DNA from: Desulfomonile tiedjei
GTDB lineage: Bacteria > Desulfobacterota > Desulfomonilia > Desulfomonilales > Desulfomonilaceae
Direction of reading: 5' to 3'
DNA: 64,000 nt
Assembly (NCBI GenBank): GCA_016218715.1
Contig: JACRDG010000017.1
Coordinates: 1-64,000, forward strand
This document shows, one piece after another, positions 7,313 to 57,495 of this stretch. Within the stretch, counting starts at the first letter, position 1. The number at the start of each line of letters is the position of its first letter. A program made the position numbers and the translations under genes. The notes beneath the pieces were generated by a model. It was not told the origin of the DNA. It saw only the letters and a list, made by a program, of their open reading frames with translations, and ran no database searches.

Positions 7313-8965
7313 ATGAAAAGAGTATTTTTTCTGGCGTTCTGTCTGGCTCTTGCAATTGCTCAGACTGCTTTGGGAGCCGATATCAAAGACTCAGAATCCG
7401 CTACCCACGGATCGGATTCATCTACGTACCGAATCGTGGACACTTACGTGTTCCCGGGCTTCAAGGTGATCCAGTTCACGCTGCCCGTTCTCTCAGTGTA
7501 CTCATACCTTCTGATGAGTGACGGGGAAGCTTTGCTGGTGGACCCGGTTAGGGACGTTTCCTTCTATCTGGAGACCGCAAAGAAAGAAGGTGCAAGAATC
7601 AAGGGCGCTTATCTGACCCATTCCCACGCGGATTTTGTCGCGGGGCACACGGAAATCACGAAGGCCCTGAATCTGCCGATCTACCAGAGCCACAAGTCCG
7701 GCGCCAAATATCCAATCGTGGCAATGGATGAGAAGTCCAAAGTCAAAATCGGACAGGCCACACTGAAATTCATGGACACGCCCGGCCACACACCCGATGG
7801 GCAGTGCTGCGCTGTCTACTCCGATGACGACCCGGACAAGCCTAAACTTCTTTTCACGGGCGATGTGCTCTTCGTGGGAAGCGTGGGGCGACCGGACCTC
7901 ATGGAGGGGACAGTTCCCGCGGCCTGGCTCGCTTCGGCCATGTACGATTCCTGGACCGACAAACTGTCCAAGCTCCCGGATAGCGTGATGATTTTCCCCG
8001 CCCACGGAGCAGGCTCGCTTTGTGGAGCCCACCTCAGCGACGAACCCAAATCGACCATCGGTCAAGAAAAGGCTTCTAATCCTTATCTGAAGGCAAAAGG
8101 GAGAGGTGAGTTCGTTGCACTCGTTTTGCAAGGCCTGCCCGAGGCGCCTCAATACTTCCAGCACAATGCAAGAATGAACCGCGAAGGACCGCCGCCGGTA
8201 GATTGGGCCGCTCCGATGCCTGCTGAGATCAAAGCCTCCGCTGACCTTACCGAACCGGACAAGTATTACCTGGTAGACGTCAGAGATGCCAAGGACTATG
8301 CAGAAGGACACATTCCCAATTCCGTGAATATCGCTGTGAGAGGGCGACTGGAGAACTGGGTAGGCACCATGGTGCCGTGGGGGGCCCAGATGGTCCTGGT
8401 GGGCGATGCGGGACTCCTGCAAGAAGCCCGGCATCGGCTCCATCGAGTAGGTTACCGTGGCGACCTCATGACATTGGATTCATGGACCCAGGCGAAGCTT
8501 CCCCTCAAGCAAGGAAGTCCTGTCTCTCCTCGGGACCTGCATGCCCTTATGCAGAAGGGCCAAGCACCACTCGTTGTCGATGTGCGTCTCCCGGCGGAAT
8601 GGATGGCCCTCCGGATAGGTACGGTCCTGAACCTGCCTCTCAGCCATCTGGCAGAACTGTCTGCCAAACTCGACCCGGAGCAGCCCGTGGTGCTCGTGTG
8701 CAACTCGGCGTATCGTTCCAGTATGGCCACGGGCATCCTTGAACGTAAGGGTATCAAGAAGGCTCGGAACCTGGAAGGAGGCAGCCAGGCTTGGATGGAC
8801 GCAGGTCTTCCGGTGTACGAAGGGGAGAAACCCCCCGAGGCCGGGCTCGTGCCCAGCAAGGCGGTACCCCGGGGATCACCATCCGACAAGCAAGAAAGCC
8901 AAGCCGCAGAATCTCCCAAAGCGAAACGTACCCTCAAGCCCAAGGTTCCTGCCGAGGGTTGCTGA
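7313..8965 (+). CDS. exported MBL-fold persulfide dioxygenase-like protein with two rhodanese domains
   Basis: A 550-residue protein. The ATG at 7313 follows GAGGG at 5 bases and begins a signal peptide (MKRVFFLAFCLALAIAQTALGA), so the mature enzyme should be periplasmic. Residues about 40-290 are a metallo-beta-lactamase domain of the ETHE1/CstB type: THSHADFVAGH, GHTPDG, FTGDVLFVG and FPAHGAGSLCG supply the expected mononuclear iron ligands. Two rhodanese domains follow, about 310-405 and 420-510. The first has no active cysteine; the second has CNSAYRS with a catalytic Cys. Fusions of this kind oxidise persulfide sulfur and transfer sulfane sulfur. Family activity requires oxygen, which is notable in a probable anaerobe. 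The C-terminus is a Lys/Pro-rich tail. Confidence 0.85.
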   Translation: MKRVFFLAFCLALAIAQTALGADIKDSESATHGSDSSTYRIVDTYVFPGFKVIQFTLPVLSVYSYLLMSDGEALLVDPVRDVSFYLETAKKEGARIKGAYLTHSHADFVAGHTEITKALNLPIYQSHKSGAKYPIVAMDEKSKVKIGQATLKFMDTPGHTPDGQCCAVYSDDDPDKPKLLFTGDVLFVGSVGRPDLMEGTVPAAWLASAMYDSWTDKLSKLPDSVMIFPAHGAGSLCGAHLSDEPKSTIGQEKASNPYLKAKGRGEFVALVLQGLPEAPQYFQHNARMNREGPPPVDWAAPMPAEIKASADLTEPDKYYLVDVRDAKDYAEGHIPNSVNIAVRGRLENWVGTMVPWGAQMVLVGDAGLLQEARHRLHRVGYRGDLMTLDSWTQAKLPLKQGSPVSPRDLHALMQKGQAPLVVDVRLPAEWMALRIGTVLNLPLSHLAELSAKLDPEQPVVLVCNSAYRSSMATGILERKGIKKARNLEGGSQAWMDAGLPVYEGEKPPEAGLVPSKAVPRGSPSDKQESQAAESPKAKRTLKPKVPAEGC

Positions 8966-36599: not shown

Positions 36600-36719
36600 A
36601 GCATGGCTTCCGTTACCTTCCAGCGCACGTCGCAGCGAAAGGGGCTGTCGCCCTAACGATTGCACGAGGGCGATCGCCAGCCTTTCGGTGGACCTTGCGC
36701 AGAGGAGCGAAAAGTGGAA

Positions 36720-37058
36720 ATGACATGCAGGCAGTGCGGATTCACCGCACCGTATTCGGAATTCACCTACCTGTGCAAATCCGGTTGACCCGCGTGCGGA
36801 GAAGCTGATCTCCGCCAATGTCCCAGGTGTGGGACCCAAAACCTGTTTTCACGGGCCGAAAGCCTCGAAAGAGAAGAGATCGAAATGAGAGAGCTCTCCG
36901 AGAAACTTGCCGGCATTTCCGCAACCGGAAGCGAGGAAGAGCTGGCCGAGGCCCGAGGGCTCATAGCGAAACTGAGGAACATGAACCTGAGATGGAACGT
37001 TCCCGAGCTGTCGAATTTCATCAAAGCCCGGCAGCGGGAGCTGTTCTTCAGAACTTGA
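36720..37058 (+). CDS. zinc-ribbon protein 3 with in-frame TGA, candidate selenoprotein
   Basis: An ATG at 36720 opens a frame that meets TGA at 36786-36788 (codon 23) and then continues uninterrupted to a TGA at 37056, giving 112 residues if the first TGA is read through. Before it: MTCRQCGFTAPYSEFTYLCKSG; after it: PACGEADLRQCPRCG, then an acidic helical domain. Both sides align with the zinc-ribbon paralogues at 30965 and 35985 (CxxC...CPxC), so the TGA is internal to one gene. It replaces the first Cys of what would be a CPAC motif, giving UPAC. A 7-bp hairpin starts 7 bases after the TGA. Selenocysteine is the favoured reading; a nonsense mutation of a Cys codon is the alternative. Confidence 0.65.
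36796..36815 (+). promoter_or_regulatory. SECIS-like hairpin downstream of in-frame TGA
   Basis: A perfect 7-bp stem, GCGGAGA (36796-36802) with TCTCCGC (36809-36815), encloses the loop AGCTGA, with G at its second position as bacterial SECIS loops prefer. It begins 7 bases after the TGA at 36786. The TGA-to-loop distance of 14 bases is slightly shorter than the usual bacterial range, so this is suggestive, not decisive. Confidence 0.45.
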
Positions 37059-52115: not shown

Positions 52116-52688
52116 TCAGTCGATCAATCTGTAGGGATAGGCCCGTTTGGTCCACTCATCGTTCGGATACTCTTTGGAAAGCCTCTCGTACGCTGCCCTT
52201 AGCGGTTTCGGATCTTGTGTGCTCTTATATTGGGATACCCCGAGCAGATATATTGCCTCCGGTGCGAAGGAGGTTTTGGAATAGGATTTCAGAAGCGACT
52301 CAAAAACGGCAATGGCCTTGCCGAAATCCTCCAGATCGAAGTGAGTCTTCCCGATCCCCAACAGGAGCGACGCGATCAGATCTTCCGGCGCGAGAAAGCC
52401 AACGGTCCGAGAATGTTCTTTTCCCTGCGAATCAATGGTCACCAGGGTCGGCGTCCATTTGACGTTGAATTGGGGTGCCAGAGTGGGGTGATTGTACTCC
52501 ACCCGCAGAGGAATGACCTTCTCGTGCAGGAAAGACGCAACCTTGTCGTCAGGATACGTAACCGCATCCATCTGTTGGCACCCGATTCAGCCCGGATTGA
52601 AGAAATCCAGCAACACAGGCTTACCCTCGCTTTGGGCTTTTGATAGAGCCTTGCCAAAATCAGTTTCCCACCCAATTTTTCCGCTCAT
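52116..52688 (-). CDS. thioredoxin-like protein with UxxC motif (in-frame TGA), candidate selenoprotein
   Basis: A 190-residue frame if the TGA at 52587-52589 (codon 34) is read through; the ATG at 52688 has GGAGG 7 bases upstream. Before the TGA: GKPVLLDFFNPG; after: IGCQQMDAVTYPDD. In the thioredoxin fold this is the end of strand beta-1 and the active site, so the TGA replaces the first Cys of CxxC, giving U-I-G-C. The cis-Pro strand follows as WTPTLVTID, and the C-terminal half has TPR-like helices. Without read-through the protein would lose its active site. Selenocysteine insertion is the simplest explanation; a nonsense mutation is the alternative. No obvious SECIS hairpin was found by eye. 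Confidence 0.75.
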
Positions 52689-53204
52689 AGGGCACCTCCA
52701 CCGTACTCCTGAATTATGCCGCGGTCCGCGGTCATGTTGCCTTGAAAGCCTATTCCATCTGGTGTCAAGAGTAATCACCCGTGCTTGGGCAGTCAAGTGG
52801 AGTGCGCCCGCAAACAGCGTCTGGCCCGCCCCGATCGACCACCCCGGACCGTCAAACCGGCTTCGTGGCAGCTATGCCGAGCGTTTTCCGGGCTGAGGTA
52901 ATGGGTGCCAGTGGCGGGGAACACGGCCGCGGCTGTACGTGGTACTCGCCAGGTCTGAGAACGCTCCCGAGATGGTCGCATCCCCAGCAGGAGACTACGC
53001 GCAGCGGGGGTCTCATTCGAGGATCGTCAAGACCTCCTGGGGCACAAGTCGGCAAGGATCACGACTCACTACTCCATGCCGGAGCTGGAGAATCCGATCG
53101 CCGCTTCCAATGAGGTGTGCACGCAAGAAGGACACAATGGTGATCCTTCGAAAGAAAAAAGCCACGAGCGCCGTGGCCAGCACGATGTAATGATAAGGTT
53201 TTTC
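52689..53204. other. intergenic region, nothing recognised
   Basis: About 515 bp between the thioredoxin-like gene and the tRNA. Arg/Pro-rich short frames on both strands look like chance translations. If the left part of the island carried an integrase, it is not recognisable here. Confidence 0.45.
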
Positions 53205-53280: not shown

Positions 53281-53438
53281 ATCAACTCGAAACCTGCGTA
53301 GTTTTGACTAGTTGCCCTACCCTAACACACGGGGCCTGTTTTTTCAAGATGACCAGTGCGGGATTCTTGCGGGACTCGTCACCACAAACCTTATTAGCAC
53401 TCGTGATGAGCTGCTCCAATTCCGGGCGAGAATAGTGA

Positions 53439-54026
53439 GTGGTGACGCTGCCTCAGATCCGGGGCAAGGAAGGGATACGGGTACGGGAGGCATACGCGCA
53501 GGCCAGCCGCGAAAGGGGTGTGCCGTGGCACGGACGCTCGTACGATCGAGGCAATTGGAACAGCGCGGCTCCGGTCAACCGCGCTCTGTCGGCAGCGAAC
53601 AGTTGTCTGTACGGTATCTGCCAGGCAAGGATTCTCGCGCTCGGACTGTCTCCCGCGCTCGGCTTCATCCACACGGGGAAGACGCTGTCGTTCGTCTATG
53701 ACATCGCAGACCTGTACAAGACCCAGGCTTCGATCCCGATTGCCATTCACGCGGTGCCAAGAGTGAGCAGCACCTCGAAACTCGGGTGCGGAAGGCCATC
53801 CGAGACAGGCTGCGAGAGACGAAGCTGCTCAAGACCATCGTTGCGCACATTCAGTTCACGCTGGATCTGCAAAGCAGAGGCCGGACCCAGCCGGCGGAGA
53901 TCGACTTCGATGCCGACCCGGCTCTCCCCGGCAACCTGTGGGACCCGACGGGGGAGAATGTGGTGGGCGGTAGGAACTTCTTCGACGAACCCGCTACAGG
54001 AGAGGAAGATGGTTCTGGTGATCCTT
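53439..54026 (+). pseudogene. cas1: type I-E cas1, N-terminally truncated and frameshifted
   Basis: The C-terminal part of Cas1 is recognisable: [49 protein letters not shown], then after a frameshift near 53762 [17 protein letters not shown] and [14 protein letters not shown]. Catalytic Glu (in RGKEG), His (in FIHTG) and the Asp pair (in YDIAD) are retained, and the overall pattern is that of type I-E Cas1. About 130 N-terminal residues are missing; no start with a ribosome site exists. Together with the cas2 remnant and one repeat it is a dead CRISPR adaptation module. Confidence 0.88.
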
Positions 54027-54280
54027 GATAAGGTCCCACGAGGGCTCAGAGGCGAGCTGACGCGATGGATGCTCGAACCGAAAACGGTATATTTCTGGGA
54101 AGCGTCACGGGGATGGTCCGTGAGCGTTTGTGGCAGAAGCTGTGCGACGAATCCCGGTACGGGGCCTGCGTGACGATCCATAGCGACAACACCGAGCAGG
54201 GATTCTCCATAAGGATCGCTGGCGAGCCGAGTCGGCAGGTTGTTGACTTCGAGGGGTTATCTTTGATCCGAGTCCCGTAA
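54009..54280 (+). pseudogene. cas2: type I-E cas2, frameshifted
   Basis: An ATG at 54009, inside the end of cas1, begins [19 protein letters not shown] and WMLEPKT, the first half of a type I-E Cas2. A one-base shift near 54090 moves the rest to another frame: [28 protein letters not shown] and DFEGLSLIRVP. Both halves are well conserved, so the frameshift appears fairly recent. The stop at 54278 is 20 bp from a single CRISPR repeat. Confidence 0.85.
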
Positions 54281-54299
54281 GCATGCGGCTTTTGGTAGC

Positions 54300-54328
54300 A
54301 TTGTCCCCACGCACGTGGGGGTGAACCG
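54300..54328 (+). CRISPR. solitary type I-E CRISPR repeat (relict array)
   Basis: A 29-bp unit with the type I-E stem CCCCACGCACGTGGGG and the ending TGAACCG matches the well-known I-E repeat at all but about four positions. No second repeat occurs within the following several hundred bases, so there are no spacers left. It lies 20 bp after the cas2 stop, too close to leave a normal leader. Confidence 0.85.
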
Positions 54329-54397
54329 GTGGTCGCTGCATGATTCTTGGAGAGTAATGTGTGCCAGTAGAGTCCTTGCGATGGAGGGGCAGAGGTT

Positions 54398-54622
54398 CTA
54401 CAAAAGTCTCTCGAATTCTTCTCTCGTCAAGTCACAGTCATTGATTATCTTGATCAGTAGGCCGGGACCGATTGATTCACCCGCGTGGACCGGCACCACG
54501 GTTACGCGGCCGTCAGGATGTCTCAGGAAATGATGGCTGCCCTTGATCCGCGTGGCCTCGAATCCAGCCTTGACCAAAGCTGCCACGACCGGTTTTCCGT
54601 CGATGCGCGGAAGTCGGGTCAT
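54398..54622 (-). CDS. hicA: HicA-family toxin (mRNA interferase)
   Basis: A 74-residue HicA protein, the normal length. The double-stranded RNA-binding-like fold is evident: ALVKAGFEATRIKGSHHFLRHPDG and VTVVPVHAGESIGPGLLIKII, here quoted in parts, with the catalytic His in KGSHHFL (about residue 29). HicA cleaves mRNA and is neutralised by HicB. The gene overlaps the 3' end of hicB by 4 bp, so toxin synthesis is coupled to antitoxin. It lies between the relict CRISPR repeat and the right tRNA half, inside the island. Confidence 0.93.
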   Translation of the reverse strand: MTRLPRIDGKPVVAALVKAGFEATRIKGSHHFLRHPDGRVTVVPVHAGESIGPGLLIKIINDCDLTREEFERLL

Positions 54623-54834
54623 AACTTCACCGTGATGCGCTGGACTCCCACAAATTCGCTGGACGAAATCGGACGCCCTTGCTCTTCAAGGCACAGGTCT
54701 ATCGCTTCCCTGACTCGCTCCATCAGGTCGTCCAGCGAGCGAGCCTGGGTGTGGCAGCCCCGAAGTTCCGGAACCGTAGCAACGTAAAAGCCTTCCTCGT
54801 CCCGTTCGACAATAACGTTGAAAGCGATTTCCAT
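54619..54834 (-). CDS. hicB: HicB-family antitoxin
   Basis: A 71-residue HicB protein; the ATG at 54834 has AGGAGG 7 bases upstream. The partial RNase H-like fold reads FNVIVERDEEGFYVATVPELRG and CHTQARSLDDLMERVREAI in separate segments, with the conserved PELxGCxxxG-type turn. It lacks a C-terminal DNA-binding domain, so it is the short form. It precedes hicA in the operon (antitoxin first), which fits a small number of HicBA operons. Confidence 0.92.
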   Translation of the reverse strand: MEIAFNVIVERDEEGFYVATVPELRGCHTQARSLDDLMERVREAIDLCLEEQGRPISSSEFVGVQRITVKL

Positions 54835-55245
54835 GGGGGTGCCTCCTGTCTTCTGAGGTGTCGTCATTTGTTATTCTACCATAGGTCCCGGAGAATCGGG
54901 GAAGGATCTCCCTTACCAGGCAACCAGGAGTGCTTTGCCAACTGCGGGTCGGCTGCTTCCCCATAAGCCTCACCTGTAAGTTCCAGGGCAGCGCCGAACT
55001 TAACAGGATCCGGGGCGATCAACCCTGCCTGAAATCTCCTGTTCCGCCCACAACCCATCGAAATTGCTGATGGTGTACAGCCCAGTACCTGCAGCGTTCC
55101 ACTGCGGCTATTCTTGTGGACGATTACCCGCGTGCGGGACTTTCGCGGGATACGATCCTGAGGAGTTGTGATCTGTCGTGAATTGGTGCACCGGACGTCC
55201 GACGTAACCAATTGATATTCTTAAATACACGCTTTAGCGGTAGGG
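54835..55245. other. intergenic region at the right end of the island
   Basis: About 410 bp with no recognisable gene. It ends at the tRNA 5'-half copy. The AT-rich stretch near 55215-55235 could be part of an element end. No integrase remnant was recognised. Confidence 0.45.
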
Positions 55246-55283
55246 TTAGGAATCCGTCGCTCTATCCACTGAGCTACGGGGGC
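55246..55283 (-). repeat. 5' half of tRNA-Arg(CCU), right boundary of island
   Basis: These 38 bp are identical to 53243-53280, from the anticodon loop to the 5' end of the intact tRNA-Arg. Sequence to the left diverges at once. Joined to the left half at 49392 through the shared TTAGGAATC it would give one complete tRNA gene. Confidence 0.9.
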
Positions 55284-55405
55284 AACGAAAGCATGAGGTT
55301 GTCTCACGCGCCAATCGGAGTATACTCTGGAAAAGCCGCGGGGTCGAAGTCAACCCTTTTGTGTCCTCCCGGGGCGTGGAGCGCATGCAGAGAGGGACGC
55401 CTGAG

Positions 55406-55750
55406 ATGGTGCTCATCGAAGCTATCGTGAAATCGTTCAAGCTCGACGACGTCAAGGAAGCCTTGGAAGAACTGGGTGTTGGAGGCCTCACGGTCACGGA
55501 AGTGATGCAAAGCGCCTCCCAGAGGCAGGGAGGTCATTCCGTCCGCGCAGGAAGGCCCACACCGGATCTGGTCCCCAAGCTGAAGATTCAAGTCGTGGCA
55601 CGGAAGGAACTGGCCGAGAGGATCATTGAAGCCCTTTGCCTTCACGGGTCCAGCGGCAAGACTGAGGACGGAAGTATCATCGTGAAGAAAGTCCAGTCTG
55701 CTGTTCGCATCCGCACGGGCGAACTGGACGACCTCGCTCTCTCGTCGTAG
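55406..55750 (+). CDS. PII-family signalling protein with a shortened T-loop
   Basis: A 114-residue GlnB-like protein starting at MVLIEAIVKSFKLDDVKEALEE; the N-terminal strand sets the start. The B-loop SGKTEDGSIIV and C-terminal RIRTGELDD are well conserved, so ATP/ADP and 2-oxoglutarate sensing are plausible. The T-loop, where PII proteins have GHTE-x-YRGAEY, reads GHSVRAGRPTPDL: the uridylylated Tyr51 and Tyr46 are absent and the loop is about one residue shorter. It is therefore unlikely to be controlled by GlnD uridylylation. No ammonium transporter is adjacent, so its target is unknown. Confidence 0.88.
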   Translation: MVLIEAIVKSFKLDDVKEALEELGVGGLTVTEVMQSASQRQGGHSVRAGRPTPDLVPKLKIQVVARKELAERIIEALCLHGSSGKTEDGSIIVKKVQSAVRIRTGELDDLALSS

Positions 55751-55836
55751 TTCGGTGTATCCCTGGTGTCTCCGTGTTTTCCGCTTTGCCGGCGACGAAC
55801 GCTGCAAGGCTTTCATCGTCAGGTCGCTCCTACCCC

Positions 55837-56184
55837 TCACGGTCGCGAAATCGGTTCGACATCGCACTGGTCACGAAAATTGCTCGCCACATCCGCTTGA
55901 AGCTTGTCCAAGGCGACCTCGTCTTCCACTTCCACGACAAGCTCTCCGTCGTCAAAGCATTTGAGCCTCCCGTGGGACTCGAAGACCTCGATGGCGCGCC
56001 TGGGGTCCACCGTGATCCAGCCCTTCATCCGCCGAAGGAGCTCGGCCCCGGTGAACTCCCGTTCAATCGTCAGCCCGATATCCCTGTTCTTTCCCTTCCA
56101 GCCTATCACCGCCGGCCGAACGAGGACCGGCATGACGGGATCGTGCATGGCAGCACAGCGAAACCAAACTCTTGCTCGAATCAT
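55837..56184 (-). CDS. hypothetical protein between the PII-like and carboxypeptidase genes
   Basis: A 115-residue frame on the minus strand; the ATG at 56184 has a GGAGAAGAG purine run upstream. The composition is protein-like, with IGWKGKNRDIGLTIEREF and a C-terminal acidic segment DDGELVVEVEDEVALDKLQ that predicts strands and a helix. The plus-strand reading of the same DNA is His/Pro/Ser-rich and unlike a protein. No family is recognised. It is convergent with the PII-like gene and divergent from the carboxypeptidase. Confidence 0.45.
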   Translation of the reverse strand: MIRARVWFRCAAMHDPVMPVLVRPAVIGWKGKNRDIGLTIEREFTGAELLRRMKGWITVDPRRAIEVFESHGRLKCFDDGELVVEVEDEVALDKLQADVASNFRDQCDVEPISRP

Positions 56185-56344
56185 GTCTGCTCTTCTCCCT
56201 CGCCTCGGTGCATGAGACGTCTGTTTCCCGGACCGTATCTTTGCACACGAACGCGGCAGATTTCCAGGCTCAAATCGCCGGCGGGCAAAAAGAACTTCAC
56301 TAACGGCTTCAAGTGTGCTATAGATTGTCAAGTTAAGGGATCAA

Positions 56345-56358
56345 TTTACCAAGGTAAA
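56345..56358 (+). promoter_or_regulatory. 14-bp palindrome upstream of the carboxypeptidase
   Basis: TTTACCAAGGTAAA has 6-bp arms and lies 19 bp before the ATG at 56377, a typical operator position. The binding protein is unknown. Confidence 0.35.
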
Positions 56359-56376
56359 CCTCTAATAAGACACCTC

Positions 56377-57495
56377 ATGAATCAGAACAAGCTCGTCTCA
56401 CCGACATCGATAGCCGCACTCTTGCGCGTGCCACTCCTTCTGGCAATCGCAGGCTTGGTTCTCTTCACGTGGTCCGTGTCCCCTTCCTGGGCTGAAGTTC
56501 GCTCGAACAAGCATCCCGCAGCAGTAAAGAAGGCCGTCAAGAAGCCCGAGAACAAGGTCGTGCTCAAGAAAAGAGCCAAGACCAAGGCAGCCACAACGAA
56601 TGCCAGGAGCGGCCACAGCAGGAAAAAGCCCGCCACGAAGACCATCAAGCGGGTCCCCAAGGGAGTCCTGGCCAAGGCGTACTATTGCGTGAACCTGGCC
56701 AACAACCGGGCGGTGCTGGAACGGAACCCGGACAAGCAATTGCCGGTCGCCAGCCTCACCAAATTGATCACAGCCCTCGTCGCGATCGATTCCATGCCGT
56801 TCGACCGGAAGTTGACCGTGCCGGATCACATCAAGAAGGTCCCGAAGTCGGTCATAGGCCTGAAACCTGGTGATGAGTTGTCGGTCGAAGATGTTCTGCA
56901 CGGGCTGCTCATGGCATCGGGGAATGACTGTGCAGAGACGATCGCTTGCTCGTTTCCCGGGGGGAGAGACGATTTTATCAAAGCCATGAATCGCAAGGTC
57001 AAGAGCATGGGAACGGCCCACACCGTGTTCTACACTCCCAGCGGTCTGGACCGCAAAGTCGTCCAGAATCGAGAAGGGAAACAGACCGTCGACGTGGACT
57101 CCAACGTGTCTACTGCCCGCGAAATCGCGCTCGTCACACGGGCTGCCTTTTCTCATCCGGAAATCCGCAGGATATGCAGGAAGACCGGCCACATACTGAA
57201 GAGCGCAAAGGCAGAAGAGGGTTACGCGGTCAGAAACACGAACAAATTGCTTCGAGACAACCTTCCGCTGATCGCGGGCAAGACCGGCTATACGGCTCGC
57301 GCCGGCCACTGCCTGGCCTCGGAGTTTGCCTGCGGGCGAGATGTTTACGTGATCGTGGTGCTCGGTAGCCCGGATCATTTTCGTGACACTCGGCTCGTAT
57401 ACCACAAGGCTCTCCAGGAAGACGCTCGCACCAAGACTGCGGCCCCGAACAGGGTCTTTTCCAGAAGAATCGCCTCCACCGTTATCACCGATTGA
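56377..57495 (+). CDS. D-alanyl-D-alanine carboxypeptidase, peptidase S11
   Basis: A 372-residue low-molecular-weight penicillin-binding protein. An N-terminal signal anchor (about residues 15-38) is followed by a Lys/Ala-rich linker of about 50 residues, unusual for the family. The catalytic motifs are SLTK (about residue 127), SGN in ASGNDCAET and KTG in AGKTGYTARAG, all in the S11 order. It trims the terminal D-Ala of peptidoglycan pentapeptides in the periplasm. The frame is open about 200 codons further upstream, but that extension shows a non-protein composition and overlaps a minus-strand gene, so the ATG before the signal sequence is chosen. There is no strong ribosome site. Confidence 0.9.
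   Translation: MNQNKLVSPTSIAALLRVPLLLAIAGLVLFTWSVSPSWAEVRSNKHPAAVKKAVKKPENKVVLKKRAKTKAATTNARSGHSRKKPATKTIKRVPKGVLAKAYYCVNLANNRAVLERNPDKQLPVASLTKLITALVAIDSMPFDRKLTVPDHIKKVPKSVIGLKPGDELSVEDVLHGLLMASGNDCAETIACSFPGGRDDFIKAMNRKVKSMGTAHTVFYTPSGLDRKVVQNREGKQTVDVDSNVSTAREIALVTRAAFSHPEIRRICRKTGHILKSAKAEEGYAVRNTNKLLRDNLPLIAGKTGYTARAGHCLASEFACGRDVYVIVVLGSPDHFRDTRLVYHKALQEDARTKTAAPNRVFSRRIASTVITD

Follow-up and report, generated by a model that had tools for sequence, protein, structure and literature searches.

A UGA codon within a gene for a thioredoxin-like protein of Desulfomonile tiedjei is very probably decoded as selenocysteine (Sec), a reading to which comparative sequence analysis lends a probability of about 0.95. 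The gene lies on the minus strand of the window, the 64,000-nucleotide stretch of DNA that was analysed, and the UGA is its codon 34. The computed evidence comprises the Sec machinery of the source genome, conservation of the UGA among homologues, the occurrence of Cys as its alternative, covariation in a SECIS hairpin and a predicted fold. The window gene represents a well-supported member of a known phenomenon, with an unusually clear SECIS, and the family of thioredoxin-like selenoproteins concerned is widespread in anaerobic bacteria. The features of the locus are as follows.

52116-52688, minus strand: putative selenoprotein gene of 190 amino acids including Sec34, with its ATG at 52688 and its terminal stop TGA at 52118-52116
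52694-52699, minus strand: Shine-Dalgarno sequence GGAGGT, 5 nt upstream of the ATG, read directly from the sequence
52587-52589, minus strand: codon 34, a UGA very probably decoded as selenocysteine; every Sec-type homologue has TGA here and eight Cys homologues have TGC
52578-52580, minus strand: codon of Cys37, the putative resolving Cys of U-I-G-C, invariant in alignments A1 and A3
52552-52569, minus strand: SECIS hairpin GGAUGCGGUUACGUAUCC, spanning nt 21-38 with the U of the UGA as nt 1 (18-35 nt after the UGA)
52368-52688, minus strand: thioredoxin-like domain, about residues 1-107, from Pfam, the predicted structure and fold matches
52143-52367, minus strand: C-terminal TPR-like helices, about residues 108-182, from Pfam TPR_6 and helices in the model

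The gene product and its probable role

With the TGA translated as a residue, the frame reads MSGKIGWETDFGKALSKAQSEGKPVLLDFFNPG-U-IGCQQMDAVTYPDDK..., and within the motif FFNPG-U-IGCQQM the TGA takes the place of the first active-site Cys. A Pfam search in which the TGA was entered as Cys returned Thioredoxin_2 (2.1e-13), Thioredoxin_7 and TPR_6, each above its cut-off. Frame translation and Pfam agree with the sequence-only reading, which had placed the TGA (52589-52587) at the first active-site Cys of a thioredoxin-like fold; the good ribosome site that it described is the GGAGGT at 52699-52694. No signal peptide was detected in the window copy.

The AlphaFold2 model, built from an alignment of 34 family members, reached a pLDDT of 96.9. 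It displays a strand at 25-30, Sec34 just ahead of the helix and a helix at 35-44, as in thioredoxin, followed by a helical C-terminal half (helices 101-118, 122-135, 142-157 and 161-173). The stretch WTPT (78-81) presumably contains the Pro that a thioredoxin-like fold places opposite its active site. The best local Foldseek matches are YbbN, DsbD-gamma, DsbH and thioredoxins, and sequence profiles agree. The DsbD C-terminal (gamma) domain and DsbH, among the best matches by sequence and structure, share the thioredoxin-like fold with the redox pair in the same place, whereas the window protein has Sec for the first Cys, a TPR tail and no membrane domain. YbbN/CnoX likewise carries a thioredoxin domain followed by TPR, and the top Foldseek matches are 3qdn and 3qou. 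Unlike YbbN/CnoX, the window protein has a shorter TPR part and a UIGC redox site, and the whole-chain comparison (TM 0.41-0.43, rmsd over 10 Å) falls short of a full-length structural match.

The events proposed here begin with a ribosome reaching the UGA at codon 34, where SelB carrying Sec-tRNA-Sec would bind the hairpin that lies 18-35 nt further on, so that selenocysteine would be inserted. The product would be a thioredoxin-like protein of the cytoplasm, extended by a TPR tail at its C-terminus and with Sec-x-x-Cys at the start of its active-site helix. Sec34 would then attack a substrate disulfide and Cys37 would resolve the intermediate, with the resulting selenenylsulfide perhaps reduced by an enzyme of the thioredoxin-reductase or ferredoxin-thioredoxin-reductase (FTR) type. 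The TPR tail possibly binds the client. From the computed data we infer Sec incorporation in vivo, the reductase activity, its partners and its role alike.

A U-x-x-C site in a DsbD-gamma/thioredoxin-like fold points to disulfide exchange, and a disulfide-reductase role is the likelier one for this protein. That a Sec-containing product might instead serve mainly in peroxide, selenium or metal handling draws on the rubrerythrin genes found nearby in several genomes; against it stand the UxxC site in such a fold and the fact that the neighbours are not conserved, and we regard it as rather unlikely.

Near the gene in several genomes lie a pyridine nucleotide-disulphide (TrxR-like) reductase, FTR, glutaredoxin, rubrerythrin or DsrC. 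A search for a conserved neighbourhood found no neighbour common to most loci, and in the window none of the directly adjacent genes had a Pfam match linked to redox. Since the neighbours vary between genomes and none is general, any redox partner named here is a weakly supported guess. The two largest neighbour clusters consisted of reverse-strand shadows of the gene itself and of apparent sensor kinases. Elsewhere in the window, a one-frame fragment at 53439-54173 on the plus strand has weak Cas1 and Cas2 (CT1978 type) matches and seems to be what is left of a CRISPR adaptation module; direct repeats of at least 22 nt, sought within 53300-56500, were not found.

Conservation of the UGA and of the hairpin behind it

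Among 60 related genomes, 25 strong matches were found, 24 with an in-frame TGA at the Sec34 codon and one (L035) with Cys. A contig scan yielded 80 named loci from Desulfobacterota, Nitrospirota, Geobacteraceae, Syntrophaceae and others, all 80 with the TGA, which in L060 follows FFNQG. With duplicates removed, the TGA stands at the Sec34 codon in 97/97 distinct sequences of the main Sec-type set. The contig scan relied on a pattern placed within the MDAVTYP stretch, which biases it to close relatives. No such bias affects a profile scan that covered 297 genomes of the phylum: among its full-length matches, 59 contain one TGA and 8 contain none, and these eight homologues have Cys (TGC) at the Sec34 codon. 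In a second set drawn from the phylum scan, all 26 readable sequences carry the TGA, counting L138, a repeat of the L036 locus. The homologue alignment proposed earlier thus yields either TGA or Cys at this site.

The family has five copies in the source genome. The four further paralogues (L036, L042, L044 and L045) all have the TGA; two of them bear a signal-like N-terminus and one is a short form. Across related copies, a hydrophobic signal-like N-terminal stretch occurs in L033, L037, L038, L042 and L044, and short copies with UGAC or UPAC are represented by L039-L041, L043 and L045.

With the U of the UGA as nt 1, nt 21-26 pair with nt 33-38. The window hairpin, GGAUGCG-GUUA-CGUAUCC, has an MFE of -9.6 kcal/mol and a z of -4.55. 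When the window sequence is folded by itself, the 60 nt after the UGA give an unremarkable structure (z -0.92); it is the 18-nt hairpin, together with sequence comparison, that carries the case for a SECIS. As given in a 2026 inventory, bSECIS criteria are a stem of 4-16 bp, an apical loop of 3-9 nt with G in its first two positions, a UGA-to-loop distance of 16-37 nt and an MFE of at most -7.5 kcal/mol (PMC13188914). The window hairpin fits this model, with a 7-bp stem, a 4-nt GUUA loop, a spacing of 24 nt and -9.6 kcal/mol. Some homologues with a 6-nt loop reach only about -6 kcal/mol when folded as the bare 18 nt.

Codon usage and base pairing in the 97-sequence set bear directly on this hairpin. 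The codon of Thr44 is ACG in 95/95 and that of Asp41 is GAT in 86/87, while other conserved codons are free to vary (four codons each for Pro32 and Val50). Pair 23-36 is A-T in 86 sequences, G-C in 8, G-T in 2 and A-C in 1, and the change of Asp41 to Gly (GAT to GGT) is accompanied by a synonymous TAT to TAC change at Tyr45 that keeps the pair. The Ala42 and Val43 codons end in positions 27 and 30, both of them synonymous sites, and these two bases are complementary in 97/97 as A-U, G-U, G-C, C-G or U-A. In 100,000 shuffles of this pair the maximum was 88 complementary sequences versus the 97 observed, and the excess over expectation is 19, against 8.7 for the next variable column pair within the 60 nt. 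The covariation was weak on the first 24 sequences and strong on 97. On a tree built without the hairpin codons, the minimum number of changes in joint state is 27 for pair 27-30 and 8 for pair 23-36, so the covariation does not go back to one inherited event; a formal tree-based test of independent pairs had too few pairs for significance.

The second set behaves in the same way, with 27-30 complementary in 26/26 and all six stem pairs present in 23/26. The three exceptions are MDAVAYP sequences, as in L034. L034, L157, L163 and L164 all have MDAVAYP and fit, by folding, a shifted pairing GGACGCGGUCGCGUACC, an alternative presentation of the GU loop. In L147, L152, L153 and L162, Glu41/Phe45 replaces Asp41/Tyr45 and pair 24-35 is kept as A-U (GAA...TTT) or G-U (GAG). 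The hairpin search suggested by the sequence-only reading found a conserved structure whose compensatory changes lie in part at synonymous positions.

E. coli SelB contacts U17 and G23 of its hairpin, and G23 and U24 lie in the apical loop (PMC8659212). By analogy, the GU at 28-29 may be the natural counterpart of E. coli G23/U24. With two synonymous positions covarying around a GU dinucleotide, the hairpin gives clean natural data on SelB recognition, and its RNA constraint visibly drives amino-acid choice.

One could also read the locus as a two-product gene, in which the UGA mostly terminates translation, Met40 serves as an internal start for a 151-residue fragment and Sec readthrough is minor. 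An ATG six codons past the UGA (52571) does open a 151-residue ORF, the only one that a standard ORF caller reports and the one that standard annotation would call, and Met40 is nearly invariant. Its conservation can be explained, though, by the position of the codon's last base in the SECIS stem and of residue 40 in the active-site helix. Furthermore, neither the redox residues nor the first strand would be part of the fragment, the part upstream of the UGA is equally conserved and the upstream ATG has the good ribosome site, which leaves this arrangement very improbable.

A true premature stop, whether from nonsense mutation, pseudogene formation or sequencing error, is a formal possibility only, given that a lone genome would look alike. 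It is effectively refuted by the conserved TGA and hairpin: the same TGA occurs in all Sec-type homologues, in Desulfobacterota, Nitrospirota and Geobacteraceae, and also in the five paralogues of the source genome, and the alignments show the protein to be conserved on both sides of it. A TGA that recurs at one codon in 97/97 and 26/26 sequences, within a frame that is otherwise open and conserved, is far more than chance would give.

Selenocysteine machinery of the source genome

The source genome (5.55 Mb in 124 contigs) holds the full set of Sec genes that the sequence-only reading had proposed to look for. A tRNA-Sec was detected with Rfam RF01852 (71.3 bits, cut-off 47) and by ARAGORN (tRNA-SeC, anticodon tca, that is UCA), and selB (384 bits, cut-off 242), selA (590 bits) and selD (370 bits) are present. 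The selD gene (L018, C85:75991-76908) has its own in-frame TGA followed by a strong hairpin, and the selenophosphate synthetase it encodes is probably itself a selenoprotein. More broadly, a tRNA-Sec match was obtained in 57/64 genomes with the TGA form and in 3/6 genomes with the Cys form only. The seven TGA-form genomes without a match include four that are less than 90% complete, and all seven were scanned under stricter filters.

Apparent readthrough of UGA in a gene family could in principle reflect genome-wide reassignment (to Trp or Gly, for example) or general UGA suppression, an explanation of negligible probability that we reject, since UGA is the ordinary terminator of this same gene and of several homologues, the whole Sec machinery is present and the replacement residue in homologues is Cys, as expected for Sec. 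The proposal of Sec decoding in this organism is upheld by the machinery, the TGA or Cys of homologues and the conserved hairpin; neither a lack of tRNA-Sec or selB nor homologues devoid of a redox residue at the site came to light to count against it.

Known relatives and a second UGA-containing gene

According to the 2026 inventory, the 119 prokaryotic selenoprotein families include a 'thiol:disulfide interchange protein' defined by PF13098 and UxxC, with WP_011366075.1 as representative (PMC13188914, Table 1); the same source credits this family to Kryukov and Gladyshev 2004. A 2006 survey places the same selenoprotein in Syntrophus aciditrophicus, Geobacter metallireducens and G. uraniumreducens (PMC1794560). 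The window protein matches Thioredoxin_2 at 2.1e-13 and carries U-I-G-C. Compared by Pfam domain, UxxC motif and taxa (Geobacteraceae, Syntrophaceae), which agree, it probably belongs to this known family. The tables consulted on 'thiol:disulfide interchange protein' make no mention of a TPR tail, which is present in the window protein.

TsoB (NF045694), VPGUxxT (NF041383) and Trx7/PDZ (NF041199) are likewise thioredoxin-like selenoproteins and give weak domain matches. Against their curated cut-offs, the window protein scores 46.7 of 805 bits for TsoB, 30.1 of 275 for VPGUxxT and 18.6 of 300 for Trx7/PDZ. An NCBIfam scan of the window protein found no model at its cut-off, and the other 33 members scanned had no matches beyond those weak models for thioredoxin and TPR (best E 7e-14). 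Because no NCBIfam model reaches its cut-off, automatic annotation probably cuts the gene at the UGA and calls the 151-residue TPR fragment. Such truncation would hide a selenoenzyme with five copies in the source genome.

A broader reading is tentative, and we lean against it while granting it some plausibility. It holds that the genes form a large family that no NCBIfam model covers and that normally uses Sec, Cys being exceptional, with at least three forms: a cytoplasmic UIGC-TPR, an exported UMGC-TPR and a short UGAC/UPAC form, all hosted by strict anaerobes. The protein would be a dedicated Sec reductant for TPR-bound clients, and the SECIS would dictate protein sequence, with Asp41 to Gly and Asp41/Tyr45 to Glu41/Phe45 changing together with exchanges of base pairs.

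When the window was searched for further UxxC-type frames, just the two cases and antisense noise came up, and a GPUIQC frame at 8480 on the minus strand had no Pfam match. The other case is a small unrelated CxxC protein at 36708-37058 on the plus strand, with TGA at 36786-36788 in CKSG-U-PACGE, already singled out by the sequence-only reading. At the TGA site its homologues have TGA (L047, L050 and L054) or Cys (L048, L049, L051, L052, L053 and L055), and this first UGA case accordingly appears real. A hairpin follows its TGA, and in L054 the stem differs with both arms changed; the gene looks like a second real selenoprotein gene.
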